Source of the DNA: Thermodesulfovibrionales bacterium
GTDB lineage: Bacteria > Nitrospirota > Thermodesulfovibrionia > Thermodesulfovibrionales > Dissulfurispiraceae
DNA: 37,057 nucleotides
Direction of reading: 5' to 3'
Assembly (NCBI GenBank): GCA_026415695.1
Contig: JAOAGP010000085.1
Span: 1 to 37,057, forward strand
Below the pieces are notes generated by a model that saw only the letters and a program-made list of their open reading frames with translations, searched no databases and was not told the origin of the DNA. Made by a program: the position numbers and the translations under genes. The first letter of the stretch is position 1. Each line of letters opens with the position of its first letter. Below are positions 3,149 to 11,065 of the stretch, piece by piece.

Positions 3149-3784
3149 TTAGGGTTCAACTAATCCCTTTTTAATCATGTAGTGTGTCAATTCTGCGTTG
3201 TTTTTCATCCCCATCTTTTCAAGAATATGCACACGATGAGTGCTAACGGTCTTGACACTTAAATTCAACTCCTCTGCAATCATGCTCACTGTCTTACCGG
3301 ATGCAATCATACACAGTATCTGATACTCCCTGTCTGTTAACAATTCATGGGGTTGTTTGTCGGTATGAGAGTCAAACTCAAATAAAAACCTTTCTGCAAT
3401 CTCTGGTGTGATGTATTTGCCATCTGAATATACCTTTTTTATCGCCTCAATGAGTTCTTCAGCAGCACTTGCCTTGTTGATGTATCCTGCAGCACCAGCC
3501 TTCAGTGCCCTAATGGCGTATTGATGTTCAGGATACATGCTCAATATCAAGACCTTCAGTTTTGGTCTATGCGTTTTTAAGACCTTGAGCAAATCAAGAC
3601 CTGTTAAACCGGGCATAGAGATATCCAACAACAACACATCACAATCAACCTTACATGCCTTATCAAGTGCATCACTACCGTTACTTGCCTCTGCAACAAC
3701 CTGTATGTCTTTGTTTTCCTCAAGTATCTTCTTTAGCCCATGACGAAATATCGTGTGGTCATCAGCGATTATAACCCTAATCAT
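3149..3784 (-). CDS. NarL/FixJ-family response regulator (REC-HTH_LuxR)
   Basis: The 211-residue protein has a receiver domain (1-120) with acidic pocket D8/D9, phospho-acceptor D54 in LLLDISMPG and the conserved Lys in GYINKASA. A LuxR-type HTH follows at about 145-205 (LTDREYQILCMIASGKT, then LSVKTVSTHRVHILEKM). All key residues are present, so it should be a phosphorylation-controlled DNA-binding regulator. It lies 12 bases downstream of a HisKA_3 kinase on the same strand, the usual cognate arrangement for NarL-type pairs. The kinase is divergently transcribed from the Kai-like cluster, which makes this regulator a candidate output or co-regulated factor for it, by inference only. Target genes cannot be read from the sequence. 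Confidence 0.92.
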   Translation of the reverse strand: MIRVIIADDHTIFRHGLKKILEENKDIQVVAEASNGSDALDKACKVDCDVLLLDISMPGLTGLDLLKVLKTHRPKLKVLILSMYPEHQYAIRALKAGAAGYINKASAAEELIEAIKKVYSDGKYITPEIAERFLFEFDSHTDKQPHELLTDREYQILCMIASGKTVSMIAEELNLSVKTVSTHRVHILEKMGMKNNAELTHYMIKKGLVEP

Positions 3785-3796
3785 ATTACCAAGCTC

Positions 3797-5992
3797 CTAA
3801 ATCGGAATAGTTACAGAGACCCTCGTCCCCTCGTTTTGTATCCCCTCAAATGTTACCTGTCCACCCAAAAACCTTACCCTTTCTCTAATCCCAATAATAC
3901 CAAAGGATGAAGGATTATTTAAACTGTCTTCAGAGATACCACAGCCATTGTCTTGTATATCAAGATATATCGTGTTGTCTCTTACATAAAGGCTGACCTG
4001 TGCCCTTGTGGCTTGAGAGTGTCTTATAATATTGGTCATTGCCTCCTGAAAGATCCTGAATATAGCAGTGGATTTTTTCTCATCAATCGATATATCAAAA
4101 CTTGGCAATTGACTTACAAATTCAATGTTTGACCTCTTTTTGTATTCCTCAATCTGCCATTCTAAAGCAGAAATAAGACCTAAATGCTCCAACACACCGG
4201 GTCTTAATTCAGAGGATATCCTTTGAACCGTCTTGATGGTCTCATTTGTGAGATTAATTATGTCATCAAGATCCATGAGGTATGAACCATCTCCATTTTC
4301 TTCAACCTTCTTTCTCAACCAAGTAATGTCTAATTTCAAGGCAGTAAGCATCTGCCCTAACTCGTCGTGTATCTCGTTTGCAATGTATCGTCTTTCATCA
4401 TCCCTTACCGTCTGTAGATGAGAAGATAGGCTCTGAAGCACCTCTTGTGAGTGTCTTAAATCGTTTTCTATGCTCTTTTGAAGTGTCATATCCCTCATAA
4501 TAGTCTTTGTCTTTTTCATGTTTCCATCACTATCATACTCAACAAAGACATTCAACACTGCAGGGAATACTGTGCCATCCTTTTTTACGATGTTTCTCTC
4601 CAATCCAAACACTGCCCTTTGTTGCTTTATCATCGGGAAGTCCCTTTCATGCTGTTTAGCAGACTCTTCAGTAAATATAAAGGTTATTGGCTTGCCGATG
4701 AGTTCCTCTTTTGTGTAGCCAAGCATCTTTAATTCGGTATCATTACATTCAACAATGATGCCATTTGCATCAACGGAATGATACATATCTGGTGCATTGT
4801 CGTATAAATCCCTGTATTTCTCCTCTGATATCCTCAATGCCTCTTCTACCTTTTTCCTCTTAATCATGTTTATAGAAAGGACTAATATGATGGTTGAAAG
4901 AAATATTATGGCTGCCATGCTCCAAAGGATAACGGTCTTATGTCGTGAAAAGAAGGTATCAGGAGTGTTTATGATAATTGCCTCTTTTGGAATTAAGCTG
5001 CTCAAGGCTTTAAATCTCTTCAATTCATTGTAATCAAACATATATTGGTTTGGACTTTTTCTAACTATTTGTATGTTGGATATATCCTCACCGTTTAGTA
5101 TCCTCAAGGCAAGACTACCTGCGGTCTTACCCTGTAAAAATGCACTCGTTAGCATCCCCCCTACAATGCCCTTACCTAAATAGAAATCCCAGAAACTAAA
5201 TATGGGAACATTTGTATATTTATAAATCACTGATAAACTCTCCTCATAGGCAAAGAAATTGCCACTCTTATCCCTGTTTACAACCACAAGCAAAATAAGT
5301 GTATCAGGAGGGAGATTGCTTACCCTTTTGGGTATGTCAGTAATGTCAAAATCATCATAAAATGTGAAGTCTACCGCATTTTGAAAATGGTCAATAACCT
5401 TCTGTATCTCCTCCTTCATGGCAATACCTGTGGTTGTCCTATCATTGATAACCAATATCTCTCTGGTCTTTGGAAACAACTGAAGTGCTATTTGGATTGT
5501 CCTAAAGGGGTCTGTCTCTTCAACCACACCTGTAATATTTTTGTGTCCCTCAATCATGCTATCTGTGAAGTTGTTTATACCAGTAAACACAATCGGTGCA
5601 TTCTTGAAGATGTCTTTTCTGTATTTAAGTGCAAACATCAAGGCATCGTTGTCAGAGACTATTATCACATCAAAGAGTTTATCTTCATACTTTTTCCTAA
5701 ATGTCTTATAAAGGAGTGTGAAATACGACTCGTCGTAGTATCTCTTTGTATCCATGTATTCAAAATCAATCTCAAGATTAGCCATGTGGTTAGCAAAGGC
5801 AGACTCTATGCCTCTTACGATATTGTCTGTCCAACTCAATCCCTTGTGGTATGAGTTTAACACCAATACCTGCTTCTTTTTGATAACATCATCGCATTGA
5901 ACTTGTGTAGATGTTGCTATTACAAGAGGTATTGTTAATATCAATATGATGACTGTCTTTGATGCAATGTGCATTAGATTTTTTAGATTCAT
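3797..5992 (-). CDS. Sensor histidine kinase with ABC-type binding-protein input domain (HisKA_3 class)
   Basis: Counted from the chosen ATG at 5992, the 731-residue protein has a Sec-type signal (about 8-30) and a periplasmic ABC_sub_bind-like domain (40-335, starting VLVLNSYHKG). A transmembrane segment follows at about 353-376, a PAS domain at 383-506, and a HisKA_3 dimerisation helix with H542 in NEIHDELGQM. The HATPase domain carries DNGCGI and GIIGIRERV. It should sense a small periplasmic ligand and phosphorylate the NarL-type regulator 12 bases downstream. The frame stays open to 6058, but the start at 5992 puts the signal peptide at the N-terminus, has a GGTGG-like site upstream, and leaves room for a promoter. 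The input is a solute-binding protein fold fused to a kinase; the ligand is unknown. Confidence 0.88.
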   Translation of the reverse strand: MNLKNLMHIASKTVIILILTIPLVIATSTQVQCDDVIKKKQVLVLNSYHKGLSWTDNIVRGIESAFANHMANLEIDFEYMDTKRYYDESYFTLLYKTFRKKYEDKLFDVIIVSDNDALMFALKYRKDIFKNAPIVFTGINNFTDSMIEGHKNITGVVEETDPFRTIQIALQLFPKTREILVINDRTTTGIAMKEEIQKVIDHFQNAVDFTFYDDFDITDIPKRVSNLPPDTLILLVVVNRDKSGNFFAYEESLSVIYKYTNVPIFSFWDFYLGKGIVGGMLTSAFLQGKTAGSLALRILNGEDISNIQIVRKSPNQYMFDYNELKRFKALSSLIPKEAIIINTPDTFFSRHKTVILWSMAAIIFLSTIILVLSINMIKRKKVEEALRISEEKYRDLYDNAPDMYHSVDANGIIVECNDTELKMLGYTKEELIGKPITFIFTEESAKQHERDFPMIKQQRAVFGLERNIVKKDGTVFPAVLNVFVEYDSDGNMKKTKTIMRDMTLQKSIENDLRHSQEVLQSLSSHLQTVRDDERRYIANEIHDELGQMLTALKLDITWLRKKVEENGDGSYLMDLDDIINLTNETIKTVQRISSELRPGVLEHLGLISALEWQIEEYKKRSNIEFVSQLPSFDISIDEKKSTAIFRIFQEAMTNIIRHSQATRAQVSLYVRDNTIYLDIQDNGCGISEDSLNNPSSFGIIGIRERVRFLGGQVTFEGIQNEGTRVSVTIPI

Positions 5993-6007
5993 ATAAGATA
6001 CCACCAG

Positions 6008-6048
6008 TTGTAATGACATAATTGTATAAGATATTATGAATGATACAA
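6008..6048. promoter_or_regulatory. Candidate overlapping divergent sigma-70 promoters
   Basis: This is the 106-base gap between the divergent kinase (5992) and the Kai-associated sensor (6099). On the plus strand TTGTAA (6008-6013) and TATTAT (6032-6037) are 18 bases apart. On the minus strand TTGTAT (6048-6043) and TACAAT (6026-6021) are 16 bases apart. The minus-strand elements also form a TTGTAT/ATACAA inverted repeat. The two promoters would interleave, so use of one could affect the other. Both are imperfect matches in AT-rich DNA, so the call is tentative. Confidence 0.35.
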
Positions 6049-6098
6049 AAAAATGCAAGTTTAAAAATTAAGAGATTCATAAAAAGAGATTGTGTCTA

Positions 6099-8060
6099 AT
6101 GAAAAACATCCTGATAAGTGAATTGTCATCAATAAAAACACTGCTATTTTTGGCATTCATATACGCCATCAGTTTGATTGATTTCCTTGTGTTTCATATA
6201 ATCATTGAAACCTATACGGTAGTAATAGCCTTTGCCATCTCTATCTTTATACTGAATACAAGGCAATACCACACACACAACTTTTTTATCATTTTGGGTA
6301 TTGCTTTTGTCTACATTGGCATTGTTGACCTAATCCACATGTTTGCCTATGAGGGAATGAATTTCAAGGCTCTTTCAGGTTCAAACAGGGCATCTCAACT
6401 GTGGATATTTAATCGTTACATACAGGCTTTGACCTTTTTATTAGCAGTTTTTCTAATAAAAAGAAGACTAAACCTCTACATGATAACAACTGGTTTTACC
6501 ATTATTTATGCAATGGGACTATCAAGCATACTGCTCTTTGACATATTCCCAGACTGCTACATTAAGGGCACAGGACAAACCACCTTTAAGATAATAAGTG
6601 AATACATTGTGATTTGTCTGTTTATAGGCTCTTTAGTCTTGCTAAACAGGGCAAGACATCACTTTGACGAATATGTCTTAAAACTTATCAAACTATCCAT
6701 CATTTTTGCCATACTTCAAGAGTTTATGTTTAGTCTTTATATATCCGTATTTTCGCCTGTAAATGCAACAGGTCATGTGTTTAAGGTGTTTTCTTTTTAC
6801 TTCATGTATAAGGCTTCAATATATCTCTCCGTCACAAAACCATTTGATGTCTTTTTTAGGGAGATAAATGAAAAGAGGCTCTTCCTAAATAGTATCATTG
6901 ACTCCCTTTCATATCCCTTTTATGTGATAGATGTAAACACATACGAGGTGGTCATGGCAAATAAGGTATCAGGATTTGATACAAGAGAAAAAACCTTATG
7001 CTACTCACTTCTAAAGAAAACAACTCACCCATGCTTATCAGATGAACAACCCTGTCCTATAGATATTGTAAAGAAGACAAAAAAATCCGTCATACTTGAG
7101 CACACTCAAGGTGATGATGGCATTGAACGGACATATCAAATACATGCCTATCCGATACTCAATGATGCCAAGGAGGTTATCTATCTCATTGAGTATTGGA
7201 TTGATATAACAGACAAGAAAAGAGAACAGGAAGATATCAAAAAGATGTCCTTGGCGATTGAGCAAAGTTCAGATTCAATCATGATTACCGACACACAAGG
7301 GGTGATACAATATGTTAATAAAAGTTTTTTAAATACAACAGGCTACCGCAAAGAAGAGGTGATTGGGGAAAAGGCATCCATTCTAAAATCAGGGTTAACA
7401 CCTGTTGAAGTGTATAAAGACATGTGGCATACCATTAAGTCTAATCGTGTGTGGAGGGGTGATTTGTGTAATAAAGACAAGGCAGGCAATCTCTTTTGGG
7501 AGCATGTATGTATCACCCCTCTTACAAATGATAAGGGAGAGATTACCCATTTTGTTGCCGTAAAAGAAAACATCGGAGACAAACTCAAGGTAAAAGAATT
7601 TGAACTCAAACTAAAGGAAAAGGACTTAAAGATACTTGAGATGCAAAAGGAACTAACCATGCTTGATGAACTATTAAAACTACATCAACCATCTATCACT
7701 GCAATAAGTTTTGGTCATAAACCCTTAAGAGAACTCTCCGCTGTGGTATTTGATGAATTAGTATCGGAGTATGAAGGGCTACTTGAACAATATGTTGACT
7801 ATCAGATATACAAAACAGACATAGATTTGCGTGAAAACATGAGGAGATACATTGAGAAATTGGCTATGTTTAAGGTTGGTGCAAGAGAGATACTTGACAT
7901 ACATACAACCGCCCTTAAAAACAAGATAGCCTCTTCAGATAAAAAAACTCAGGCATACATTGAAGAGGGCAGGATGATGGTTTTAGAGATGATGGGTTAT
8001 CTCGTTAATTATTATAGGAATTTCTCTATAGGTGGCATCGTGGATTTTAAAAAAAGGTAA
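6099..8060 (+). CDS. Membrane MASE3-PAS-PAS protein with C-terminal KaiA/RsbU-N-like domain
   Basis: The 653-residue protein has no kinase domain. Residues about 10-255 form a MASE3-type multi-helix membrane sensor (DLIHMFAYEGMNF motif, several hydrophobic helices). PAS1 (about 262-370) carries a cysteine cluster (C301, H310, C312, C319). PAS2 spans about 378-495, followed by a coiled coil. The last 105 residues (545-650, nt 7731-8048) are an all-helical block with LLEQYV, REILDIHTTAL (H602) and a final MMGYLVNYYRNFSI. This pattern matches my recollection of the KaiA C-terminal domain (VLEIH, then a helix ending MYRRSI) and of the related RsbU N-terminal domain. The next genes are kaiB and kaiC, so a KaiA-like role in stimulating KaiC phosphorylation is inferred. 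The ATG at 6099 is preferred over a TTG at 6090. Domain order is firm; the KaiA-like assignment needs a profile search. Confidence 0.8.
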   Translation: MKNILISELSSIKTLLFLAFIYAISLIDFLVFHIIIETYTVVIAFAISIFILNTRQYHTHNFFIILGIAFVYIGIVDLIHMFAYEGMNFKALSGSNRASQLWIFNRYIQALTFLLAVFLIKRRLNLYMITTGFTIIYAMGLSSILLFDIFPDCYIKGTGQTTFKIISEYIVICLFIGSLVLLNRARHHFDEYVLKLIKLSIIFAILQEFMFSLYISVFSPVNATGHVFKVFSFYFMYKASIYLSVTKPFDVFFREINEKRLFLNSIIDSLSYPFYVIDVNTYEVVMANKVSGFDTREKTLCYSLLKKTTHPCLSDEQPCPIDIVKKTKKSVILEHTQGDDGIERTYQIHAYPILNDAKEVIYLIEYWIDITDKKREQEDIKKMSLAIEQSSDSIMITDTQGVIQYVNKSFLNTTGYRKEEVIGEKASILKSGLTPVEVYKDMWHTIKSNRVWRGDLCNKDKAGNLFWEHVCITPLTNDKGEITHFVAVKENIGDKLKVKEFELKLKEKDLKILEMQKELTMLDELLKLHQPSITAISFGHKPLRELSAVVFDELVSEYEGLLEQYVDYQIYKTDIDLRENMRRYIEKLAMFKVGAREILDIHTTALKNKIASSDKKTQAYIEEGRMMVLEMMGYLVNYYRNFSIGGIVDFKKR

Positions 8061-8125
8061 AATCTGTGTTATTTTAGTATGCTGTAAAATCAAATCACTT
8101 CACTTAATAATCAATGGGAGGCATG

Positions 8126-8434
8126 ATGAGCAAGTATCTTCTAAAGTTATATGTTACAGGTAGAACCCCTCGTTCTGAAAGAGCGATAAGTAACCTCAAG
8201 AGGATATGCGAGGAGGAATTGCAAGGTCAATACGAGATGGTAATCATAGATGTGTTGGAAAGACCACAATTGGCAGAAGAGGAAAAGATACTTGCTACAC
8301 CTACTCTTATAAAGCAACTTCCCCCTCCTTTGAGGAGAATTATTGGAGACCTGTCTGACACTGAAAAGGTCTTGTTGGGGTTGGATATCCTGCCATTTGG
8401 TAAGGTAAAGACCTCAAAAGAAGGAGAGGTGTAA
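8126..8434 (+). CDS. kaiB: Clock protein KaiB
   Basis: The protein is about 102 residues, the usual KaiB size, with thioredoxin-like fold-switching family hallmarks: KLYVTGRTP near the N-terminus, [25 protein letters not shown], and [14 protein letters not shown]. In cyanobacteria KaiB binds the CI ring of phosphorylated KaiC and sequesters KaiA. The frame opens at ATG 8114, but that ATG has no ribosome site. The GGGAGG at 8116-8121 lies just ahead of ATGs at 8123 and 8126, and [10 protein letters not shown] aligns with usual KaiB starts, so 8126 is chosen. The gene is 65 bases after the KaiA-like sensor and 2 bases before kaiC. It is a stand-alone KaiB, not the KaiB-like domain of a SasA kinase. 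Confidence 0.95.
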
Positions 8435-8436
8435 CG

Positions 8437-9954
8437 ATGTTTAACTTTCCAAATTCCTATGTTGAAAAACTTCCCACTGGCATACCCGGTTTTGACCACA
8501 TCTCTAAAGGGGGATTGCCCAAGAATAGAACAACCCTTGTATCAGGCACATCAGGAAGTGCAAAGACGGTATTTGCCGTGCAGTTCCTTGCTGCCGGCAT
8601 AATTCAGTCGGAGGAAAGCGGTGTGTTTGTCACCTTTGAAGAGTCACCTGCAGATATTAGAAAAAACTTTTTGTCTTTAGGTTTTGATATTGCTCAGTGG
8701 GAGGCAGAAGGAAGGTGGTTGTTTGTAGATGCATCCCCTCAAATAGGCGACTCACCTTTTGAATCTGGCAGTTATGACCTTGGCGCCCTGCTTGCCCGTA
8801 TTGAGTATGCCATAAGAAAGATACAGGCAAAGAGGGTATCAATTGACTCACTTGGTGCAATATTCAATCAATTAAGCCACCGTGCAACCATAAGGAGAGA
8901 ACTGCACAGGATTGCAAATGCCCTCAAAAAACTGGGTGTTACTGCGGTGATGACTGCAGAAAGAACTCAAGAGTATGGAAACATTGCAAGGTTTGATGTT
9001 GAGGAGTTTGTTGCTGACAATGTCATCATCTTAAGGAATGTGCTTGATGAGGAAAAAAGAAGAAGAACGATTGAGATACTAAAATTTAGGGGCACAGACC
9101 ATCAAAAAGGGGAGTTCCCATTTACAATAATTCCCAATGAAGGAGTTGTTATCATTCCTCTGTCGGCAATTGAGTTGAAACAGAAATCCTCTGACTACAG
9201 GGTGTCTTCAGGCAATGCCAACTTAGACAAGATGTGCGGTGGTGGCTTCTTCAGGGACTCCATTGTGCTTGTATCTGGGGCAACAGGCACGGGTAAGACC
9301 TTGATGGTTACAGAGTTTATGTCTAAATTGAGCACAAACGACAAGTGCCTTCTCTTTGCATTTGAGGAAAGCCGTGAGCAACTCTTTAGGAATGCCCGTG
9401 GTTGGGGTATGAACTTTGAGAAACTTGAGCAAGATGGCAGACTTAAGGTTGTGTGCGAATACCCAGAGGTAATGGGACTTGAAGACCACTTGATTAAGAT
9501 AAAGGAGATTATATCTGAATTTAAACCCAATAGGGTGGCAGTTGATAGCCTATCTGCACTTGAAAGGGTCTCAACTACAAAGGGATTTAGGGAGTTTGTG
9601 ATTGGGTTGACATCATTTATAAAACATCAAGAGATAGTAGGGCTCTTCACCTCTACTACACCTACACTCATGGGTGGCACTTCAGTCACAGAAACACACA
9701 TATCTACCCTGACTGACAGCATTATACTTCTTAGGTATGTTGAGGTCTATGGTGAGATAAAGCGTTGTATCACAGTTCTTAAGATGAGAGGTTCCATGCA
9801 TGATAAGGAGATAAGAGAGTTTACCATAGACAATACAGGTATGCACATAGGCAAACCATTTAGAAACATCACTGGGATACTGTCGGGCAAGCCTATATTC
9901 ATTCAACAAAAAGAGATTGAGAGATTAGGCAGCATGTTTGAAGACCAGAAATAG
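8437..9954 (+). CDS. kaiC: Circadian clock ATPase/autokinase KaiC
   Basis: The 505-residue protein has two RecA-like domains, CI and CII. CI has Walker A GTSGSAKT (37-44) and catalytic E68/E69. CII has Walker A GATGTGKT (281-288) and E310/E311. The autophosphorylation segment reads VTETHISTLTD, giving T418, S423 and T424. These line up with T426, S431 and T432 of Synechococcus KaiC at an offset of -8. The C-terminus retains an A-loop-like segment (about 479-489) and a short tail, the part KaiA binds in cyanobacteria. It should form a hexamer with slow ATPase and autokinase/autophosphatase activity. The ribosome site AAGGAGAGG overlaps the end of kaiB, so translation is probably coupled. A RadA- or GvpD-type single-domain ATPase is ruled out by the double domain and the phosphosite motif. 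Confidence 0.97.
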   Translation: MFNFPNSYVEKLPTGIPGFDHISKGGLPKNRTTLVSGTSGSAKTVFAVQFLAAGIIQSEESGVFVTFEESPADIRKNFLSLGFDIAQWEAEGRWLFVDASPQIGDSPFESGSYDLGALLARIEYAIRKIQAKRVSIDSLGAIFNQLSHRATIRRELHRIANALKKLGVTAVMTAERTQEYGNIARFDVEEFVADNVIILRNVLDEEKRRRTIEILKFRGTDHQKGEFPFTIIPNEGVVIIPLSAIELKQKSSDYRVSSGNANLDKMCGGGFFRDSIVLVSGATGTGKTLMVTEFMSKLSTNDKCLLFAFEESREQLFRNARGWGMNFEKLEQDGRLKVVCEYPEVMGLEDHLIKIKEIISEFKPNRVAVDSLSALERVSTTKGFREFVIGLTSFIKHQEIVGLFTSTTPTLMGGTSVTETHISTLTDSIILLRYVEVYGEIKRCITVLKMRGSMHDKEIREFTIDNTGMHIGKPFRNITGILSGKPIFIQQKEIERLGSMFEDQK

Positions 9955-9981: not shown

Positions 9982-10030
9982 AAGTTAAATTAGTTAAAGA
10001 GAGGCTGTGGGGTATTATTTATTAAATCAA

Positions 10031-11065
10031 ATGACCATTAGACAACAGATTGAGGATACCGAAGAAAAGATACTGCATCCAAAGGCTGCTTTGAGCAAAA
10101 ACTCAAAAGGCAGGGATAAGCAAGAGCAAGAGTGTAGCGTAAGAACCTGCTATCAAAGGGATAGAGATAGGATAATACACTCTAAATCATTTAGAAGGCT
10201 TAAACACAAGACCCAAGTCTTTTTTGCCCCTCAAGGTGACCACTACAGGACAAGGCTTACACATGTGCTTGAGGTTTCACAGATTGGTAGGACAATAGCA
10301 AGGGCATTGAGGTTAAATGAAGACTTGGTAGAGGCAATCGCTTTAGGACATGATTTAGGACACACACCATTTGGACATGCTGGTGAGGCGGCATTAAATG
10401 AGGTTAACCCTCTTGGTTTTTCACATTACAAACAAAGTATCAGGCTCGTTGAGTGCCTTGAGAAAAACGGGCGTGGACTTAATCTCACAGTTGAGGTAAG
10501 AGATGGCATACTTAAACATTCAAAAGGAAGAGGTAGTATCCTAAACACAGATGACATGCCAATGACACAAGAGGCATTGGTGGTGCGTATTGCCGACATT
10601 ATCGCATATGTAAACCACGATTTAGACGATGCCTTGAGGGCAAACATCATAAAACTCTCTGACCTGCCAAATGACATATTATCAGTAATCGGTCAGTCAT
10701 ATTCAGGTCGTATAGATGTAATGGTAAAGGATGTGATATTTACTACTATAAAGAAAGATTACGAGACAGTCTCTCCAAGTGACAGCATGCTTGAGACGAT
10801 ATACAACTTGAGGGATTTCCTGTATGAAAGGGTGTATGAGCATCCATCAATTATTCAGGAGTTTAACAAGGCAAAGAAGATACTCAAGGAGTTGTATTTT
10901 TACTATCTTCAACACCTTGATATCATAAAGGAAAAATACAGTTTTCAAGACCAAAGCAAAGATTATGACAAGTTTACCATTGCAAGCGATTTTGTATCAG
11001 GCATGACAGACAGATTTGCCTTGTCTTGTTATAAATCCCTCTTTGTCCCTAACCAGTGGTTTTAG
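10031..11065 (+). CDS. dgt: Deoxyguanosinetriphosphate triphosphohydrolase-like protein (HD domain)
   Basis: The protein is about 344 residues from ATG 10031. It matches the dGTPase type 2 subfamily: [20 protein letters not shown], then H78 in [10 protein letters not shown], the HD pair H107/D108 in [15 protein letters not shown], and a later Asp in [13 protein letters not shown]. Family members split dNTPs into a deoxynucleoside and triphosphate and so control dNTP pools. The frame also allows a GTG start at 10007, next to an AGAGAGG site; ATG 10031 is chosen because MTIRQQIE matches typical family N-termini, though it has no good ribosome site. The gene follows kaiC on the same strand, but a weak terminator lies between them. 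The metal-binding set looks complete. Substrate preference for dGTP is assumed from the family. Confidence 0.88.

Follow-up and report, generated by a model that had tools for sequence, protein, structure and literature searches.

A putative membrane-anchored KaiA-type regulator beside kaiB-kaiC in Nitrospirota and the recurrence of its KaiA-like tail on other sensors

The window, the whole 37,057-nucleotide stretch analysed here, encodes a 653-residue protein immediately 5' of kaiB and kaiC, with all three genes on the same strand (Table 1). The source genome (2.2 Mb, 99.7% complete) belongs, within the Nitrospirota, to the Thermodesulfovibrionales, the order that also contains Ca. Magnetobacterium casense (L029, the contig of genome G242). 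The window kaiB is the single PF07689 match in the whole genome, so that no SasA-type KaiB-domain kinase reaches this model, and PF07688 (KaiA) has no match anywhere in the genome. Promoter and terminator scans gave signals no more frequent than in shuffles. A divergent two-component pair (3149-6058, reverse strand) starts some 40 bases away from the clock genes and consists of an ABC-substrate-binding-like sensor/PAS/HisKA_3 kinase and a NarL-type regulator. Such a pair is absent at the equivalent place in the sister locus L016, where receiver and kinase genes precede the kai genes and are oriented like them.

Table 1 Features of the clock locus, in positions of the window
Feature	Positions	Strand	Basis
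KaiA-tail membrane sensor gene, 653 aa, MASE3-PAS-PAS-helix-KaiA-like	6099..8060	+	ORF, ATG at 6099, stop at 8060; Pfam
MASE3 membrane sensor domain, residues 25-248	6171..6842	+	Pfam, E 1.2e-67
PAS1, about residues 266-376	6894..7226	+	Pfam PAS_4, weaker in the window (two stretches), clear in sister L016 at 267-374
Cys motif C301-x10-C312-x6-C319 in PAS1	6999..7055	+	Alignment; conserved in three genus members
PAS2, about residues 384-500	7248..7598	+	Pfam PAS at residues 391-492; PDB phmmer
Long helix/coiled coil from PAS2 to the tail, 36 residues, 493-528	7575..7682	+	AlphaFold secondary structure
KaiA-like four-helix output domain (predicted fold), residues 536-647	7704..8039	+	Profile searches, hhalign, AlphaFold, Foldseek, structural alignment
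kaiB	8114..8434	+	PF07689, E 1.7e-31; NF006798 above cutoff; start maybe 8126, as in relatives
kaiC, 505 aa, double-domain, KaiC3-like	8437..9954	+	TIGR02655 and NF006799 above cutoff
KaiC Ser423-Thr424 phosphosite pair	9703..9708	+	KaiC alignment; Synechocystis KaiC3 numbering identical (PMC11372060)
KaiC A-loop and C-terminal tail, residues 476-505	9862..9951	+	Alignment of 38 KaiC; corresponds to the KaiA-binding tail

Pfam and AlphaFold bear out the layout given in the original prediction, namely a MASE3 domain, two PAS domains, a coiled coil and a helical tail in the place of a kinase. Neither Pfam nor NCBIfam finds a HisKA or HATPase match in the 653 residues, and NCBIfam MASE3_PAS_HK (NF047874) matches the N-terminus. 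The nearest PDB relatives of PAS2 by phmmer are MmoS (3ewk, E 1.5e-29), NifL PAS1 (2gj3, 8.6e-18) and Aer (8dik, 7.7e-14), with LOV domains ranking after them. MmoS, NifL and Aer are FAD-binding redox sensors, and the Asn and Trp positions of this group, judged by eye, are kept in PAS2, which from its sequence probably senses redox state or oxygen through FAD. PAS1 alone finds no relative in the PDB at E 1; its cysteine motif is a possible cofactor or redox site. Together with the 36-residue helix, the kinship of PAS2 and the cysteines of PAS1 make a redox or oxygen signal, passed along the coiled coil to the tail, the likeliest input.

Standard annotation overlooks the tail, as had been foreseen: no Pfam or NCBIfam model recognises it. 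The window protein has no match to PF07688 (cutoff 22.2 bits), against which a receiver-tail protein from a cyanobacterium reaches 20-21 bits and the L016 sister protein 16.5 bits. KaiA C-domains nevertheless rank first when the PDB is searched with the single tail sequence (E 0.15), and they are the top four matches of a 15-sequence tail profile (E 0.003-0.016). Alignment of the tail family with canonical cyanobacterial KaiA C-domains by hhalign gave E-values of 5e-6 to 1e-5 (9.5e-6 in one run) and scores of 32-37. In the control run KaiA scored 32, against a maximum of 10 for 50 column shuffles and 3-4 for two HisKA domains encoded in the window; reversed KaiA stayed at background and the control E-values were 0.5 or more. 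The AlphaFold model, built from a 26-sequence alignment, has four helices (core residues 548-571, 577-590, 595-612 and 617-649) with core pLDDT mostly above 85-90. Foldseek places KaiA C-domains at all of matches 1-12 (probability 0.98-1.0, the next match 0.47). The Foldseek E-values, at 0.03, are no better than modest, which the small size and helical nature of the domain would lead one to expect. Structural alignment of the predicted tail with VIA-align gives Z of 10.5-11.8 for KaiA and 5.9 for RsbU-N (1w53), although a Z of 11-12 is by itself insufficient to settle a helical bundle. We call the tail KaiA-like because sequence, profile, fold and gene order concur. Judged on these alignments and on a fold that is a predicted model, the tail is homologous to the C-domain of KaiA and KaiA3. 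The motifs GxRD..IH, EEGR and MGxL..YYRN are conserved in it across phyla; viral contigs yielded no relative.

The gene order at the locus is maintained well beyond the window, and more than chance would give. All three genomes examined from its genus carry a MASE3-PAS-PAS-tail protein with kaiB downstream (window, L016 and L056). When genome contigs were scanned with the tail alone, 27 loci emerged, 26 of them with kaiB and kaiC directly 3'. Among 104 distinct tails from tail-only searches, kaiB and/or kaiC lies directly 3' in 90 (kaiB in 86 and kaiC in four more), and two of the remaining 14 tails are at a contig edge. The tail also co-occurs with KaiC like that of the window, defined by E below 1e-120. 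In a sample of 296 Nitrospirota genomes, all ten with such a KaiC have the tail, which is found in 12 altogether (Fisher p 5e-17); in 297 genomes of the Desulfobacterota, the phylum of L053, the figures are five of five, with seven tails in total (p 1e-9). The original prediction, which placed the protein directly upstream of kaiB-kaiC, also noted that most kaiBC loci outside cyanobacteria are described as lacking kaiA. That view does stand in the literature, where KaiA is reported as exclusive to cyanobacteria (PMC5520375), but it reflects older BLAST surveys.

Magnetotactic Nitrospirota, of the same phylum as the window, offer a direct comparison. Their loci were described as 'kaiBC-based' (PMC10278575) and published without KaiA, whereas all three clusters on the analysed contig (L017, L018 and L033) have a tail gene directly 5'. 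These form three tail-kaiB-kaiC operons on a single contig of Ca. Magnetocorallium paracelense XS-1 (G154:C74), and the L018 tail (8522-9358) is strongly diverged, as are its KaiB and KaiC.

All 38 aligned KaiC proteins retain the CII P-loop, both catalytic Glu pairs, the phosphosite pair and the C-terminal tail, and the phosphosite motif reads HIST throughout, except for HVST in L038. The canonical CI P-loop of KaiC is GTGKT. In the window (8545-8568, KaiC residues 37-44) and in 33 of 37 aligned relatives it is GSAKT or GSSKT, mostly GSAKT, which at the sequence level is a signature of the tail-associated KaiC group. With this unusual CI Walker A, GSAKT for GTGKT, the ATPase rate of the group may differ. 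The KaiC entry 8zn5 is nowhere mentioned in PMC12084410.

The closest described relative is KaiA3 of Synechocystis (sll0485), a NarL-type receiver with a KaiA-like tail that binds KaiC3 and promotes its phosphorylation, which KaiB3 opposes; Synechococcus KaiA is unable to replace it (PMC11372060). KaiA3 and the window protein have in common the KaiA-like four-helix C-terminal domain (predicted in the latter), the tail-kaiB-kaiC order and a KaiC partner with S423/T424. They differ in that KaiA3 has a receiver with a phosphorylatable Asp, whereas the window protein is a membrane MASE3-PAS-PAS protein with no receiver and hence is not KaiA3. The window tail is 39% identical to the receiver-tail proteins of L034 and L035 (Gomphosphaeria and an Oscillatoriaceae cyanobacterium) and has profile links to them; taxon, layout and synteny are the grounds for treating these two as KaiA3-like, and the comparison uses them as stand-ins for sll0485. 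Canonical KaiA resembles the window protein in C-domain fold (predicted here), remote sequence homology, gene position 5' of kaiBC and possibly a redox-linked input, its pseudoreceiver in cyanobacteria binding oxidised quinones (PMC11372060). Unlike canonical KaiA, the window protein is membrane-bound; lacking a pseudoreceiver and falling below the Pfam cutoff, it is not a canonical KaiA. Histidine kinases of the NF047874 type share the N-terminal MASE3 and PAS domains but carry a kinase core where the window protein has the KaiA-like tail.

Since the same three parts stand in the same order as in the KaiA3 system, the most economical interpretation is an activator of the KaiA type that is bound to the membrane. 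We consider it very probable that the 653-residue protein is a membrane-anchored, sensor-driven KaiA-type regulator of KaiC, with a tail homologous to the KaiA/KaiA3 C-domain. Its likely role, by analogy, would be that of a membrane redox sensor directly gating KaiC autophosphorylation. As in KaiA, the tail would dimerise and the dimer would grip the C-terminal tail of KaiC, driving autophosphorylation at Ser423/Thr424 while KaiB opposes it. MASE3 and the two PAS domains would signal to the tail via the coiled coil, and the state of the sensor would determine the strength of the drive towards KaiC phosphorylation. Redox or membrane state would thus be fed into KaiC via a sensor unrelated to the cyanobacterial pseudoreceiver; if PAS2 binds FAD, the redox input would have been kept and the sensor replaced relative to cyanobacterial KaiA. 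What the analyses establish is the domain order, the gene order, conservation, the homology and predicted fold of the tail, and the swapping of inputs, while KaiC binding, kinase activation, a bound FAD and any rhythm all belong to this inferred scheme.

The same homology could serve a different effect, with the tail binding KaiC, or KaiB-KaiC, mainly as a membrane tether or restraint, within a switch responsive to redox or stress or within an hourglass, with no self-sustained rhythm. The MASE3 anchor would suit such a role, as would a small Nitrospirota genome with no PF07688 match and one PF07689 KaiB, and residues at the interface of KaiA3 with KaiC show lower conservation when set against KaiA (PMC11372060). 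KaiC, however, shares conserved phosphosites and a conserved C-terminal tail with KaiC3, whose phosphorylation KaiA3 promotes, and we regard a tethering or restraining role as unlikely. It is very improbable that the tail is instead an RsbU-N-like domain recruiting an RsbT-type switch kinase rather than KaiC. KaiA and RsbU-N do share a related fold, and PF08673 (RsbU_N, cutoff 25.5) weakly matches the L016 sister (14.1 bits, E 0.056); but the window protein has neither a PF08673 match nor a PP2C domain, its structural match to RsbU-N is much the weaker one, the PDB profile search returns KaiA and no RsbU, and kaiB or kaiC follows most tail genes. A degenerate HisKA helix pair, which the original prediction had named as an example of a refuting fold, or a plain coiled-coil dimerisation domain, is scarcely credible: many MASE3-PAS proteins carry a kinase at the C-terminus and MASE3_PAS_HK matches the N-terminus, but kinase-domain matches are missing, hhalign puts both HisKA domains of the window at background, and the tail motifs are kept across phyla. 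Both identities for the tail were dropped, HisKA on the hhalign background and RsbU-N on its Z, and the KaiA-type fold originally proposed is favoured.

A KaiA-type tail is found on many inputs besides MASE3-PAS-PAS, the arrangement of the window, L016 and L056. According to Pfam and local profiles, it is joined to receivers in 74 of 100 tree rows and to one, two or three PAS domains in 18. Rarer partners are REC-PAS (L046), protoglobin (L052, Methylobacter) and MASE3-GAF (L053, a Desulfobacteraceae bacterium); the N-terminus of L080 has no Pfam match, and its 'GAF' tree label was assigned by eye only. On the tail tree (103 rows, 134 columns), the input labels need approximately 15 changes, with well-supported branches forcing at least three for receivers and at least two for MASE3; these counts are rough because the tree is short and its resolution poor. 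Repeated input swapping across the family is nonetheless hard to avoid. The exchange of input domains that had been predicted thus stands, as the same tail occurs on varied sensors, but it is not wholly new, since KaiA3 with a receiver has been published for cyanobacteria and five non-cyanobacterial genera (PMC11372060). We found no description of KaiA-like tails attached to PAS, globin or MASE3 inputs in a literature whose subscription papers and preprints were mostly beyond reach; the protein is a variant of KaiA-like regulators, and the input swap is the part for which no prior description was found.

With the same tail on differing sensors in several phyla, the activator looks like a plug-in output module. 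It seems probable to us that KaiA is a portable output module of this kind, that receiver, PAS, protoglobin and MASE3 sensors have repeatedly been joined to a KaiA-like tail acting directly on KaiC, and that many "kaiA-less" kaiBC timers own a KaiA whose sensor is specific to the lineage, in this case a redox sensor in the membrane. The phrase 'kaiBC without kaiA' would then become a testable statement, that many non-cyanobacterial Kai loci each have a KaiA-like activator with its own sensor. The family would offer an evolutionary series in which inputs are exchanged on a single conserved output and a route to study the coupling of a clock or timer to its environment when no histidine kinase is involved, and its redox, globin and receiver modules could serve as ready-made parts to control KaiC phosphorylation in vitro.

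Some tails lie away from kaiBC, for example in L027, L028, L082 and L083, so some family members may bind another partner. In the Nitrospirota, L026, L027 and L028 encode receiver-tail proteins with no kaiB or kaiC in the stretch read, L028 having no clear receiver. The Chloroflexota loci L082, L083, L092, L094 and L096 likewise encode receiver-tail proteins with no kaiB or kaiC in the stretch read, and the same genomes encode a PAS-PAS-tail protein. The receiver-tail proteins of these eight loci may regulate output or may work in trans. In the Pseudomonadota, L114-L117 and L119-L122 form a diverged receiver-tail group (57-67 bits), mostly 5' of kaiB/kaiC, whose long branch leads towards canonical KaiA; its position may reflect an intermediate or an artefact of long branches. 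In the Methylobacter locus L052, a protoglobin is fused straight to the KaiA-like tail (5335-6426) 5' of kaiB-kaiC and is a candidate haem oxygen input to KaiC. Immediately 3' of kaiC, the window (10007-11065) and L016 (3058-4089) both carry a dGTPase-like HD gene (HD and HD_assoc domains), with 70% identity between the two.
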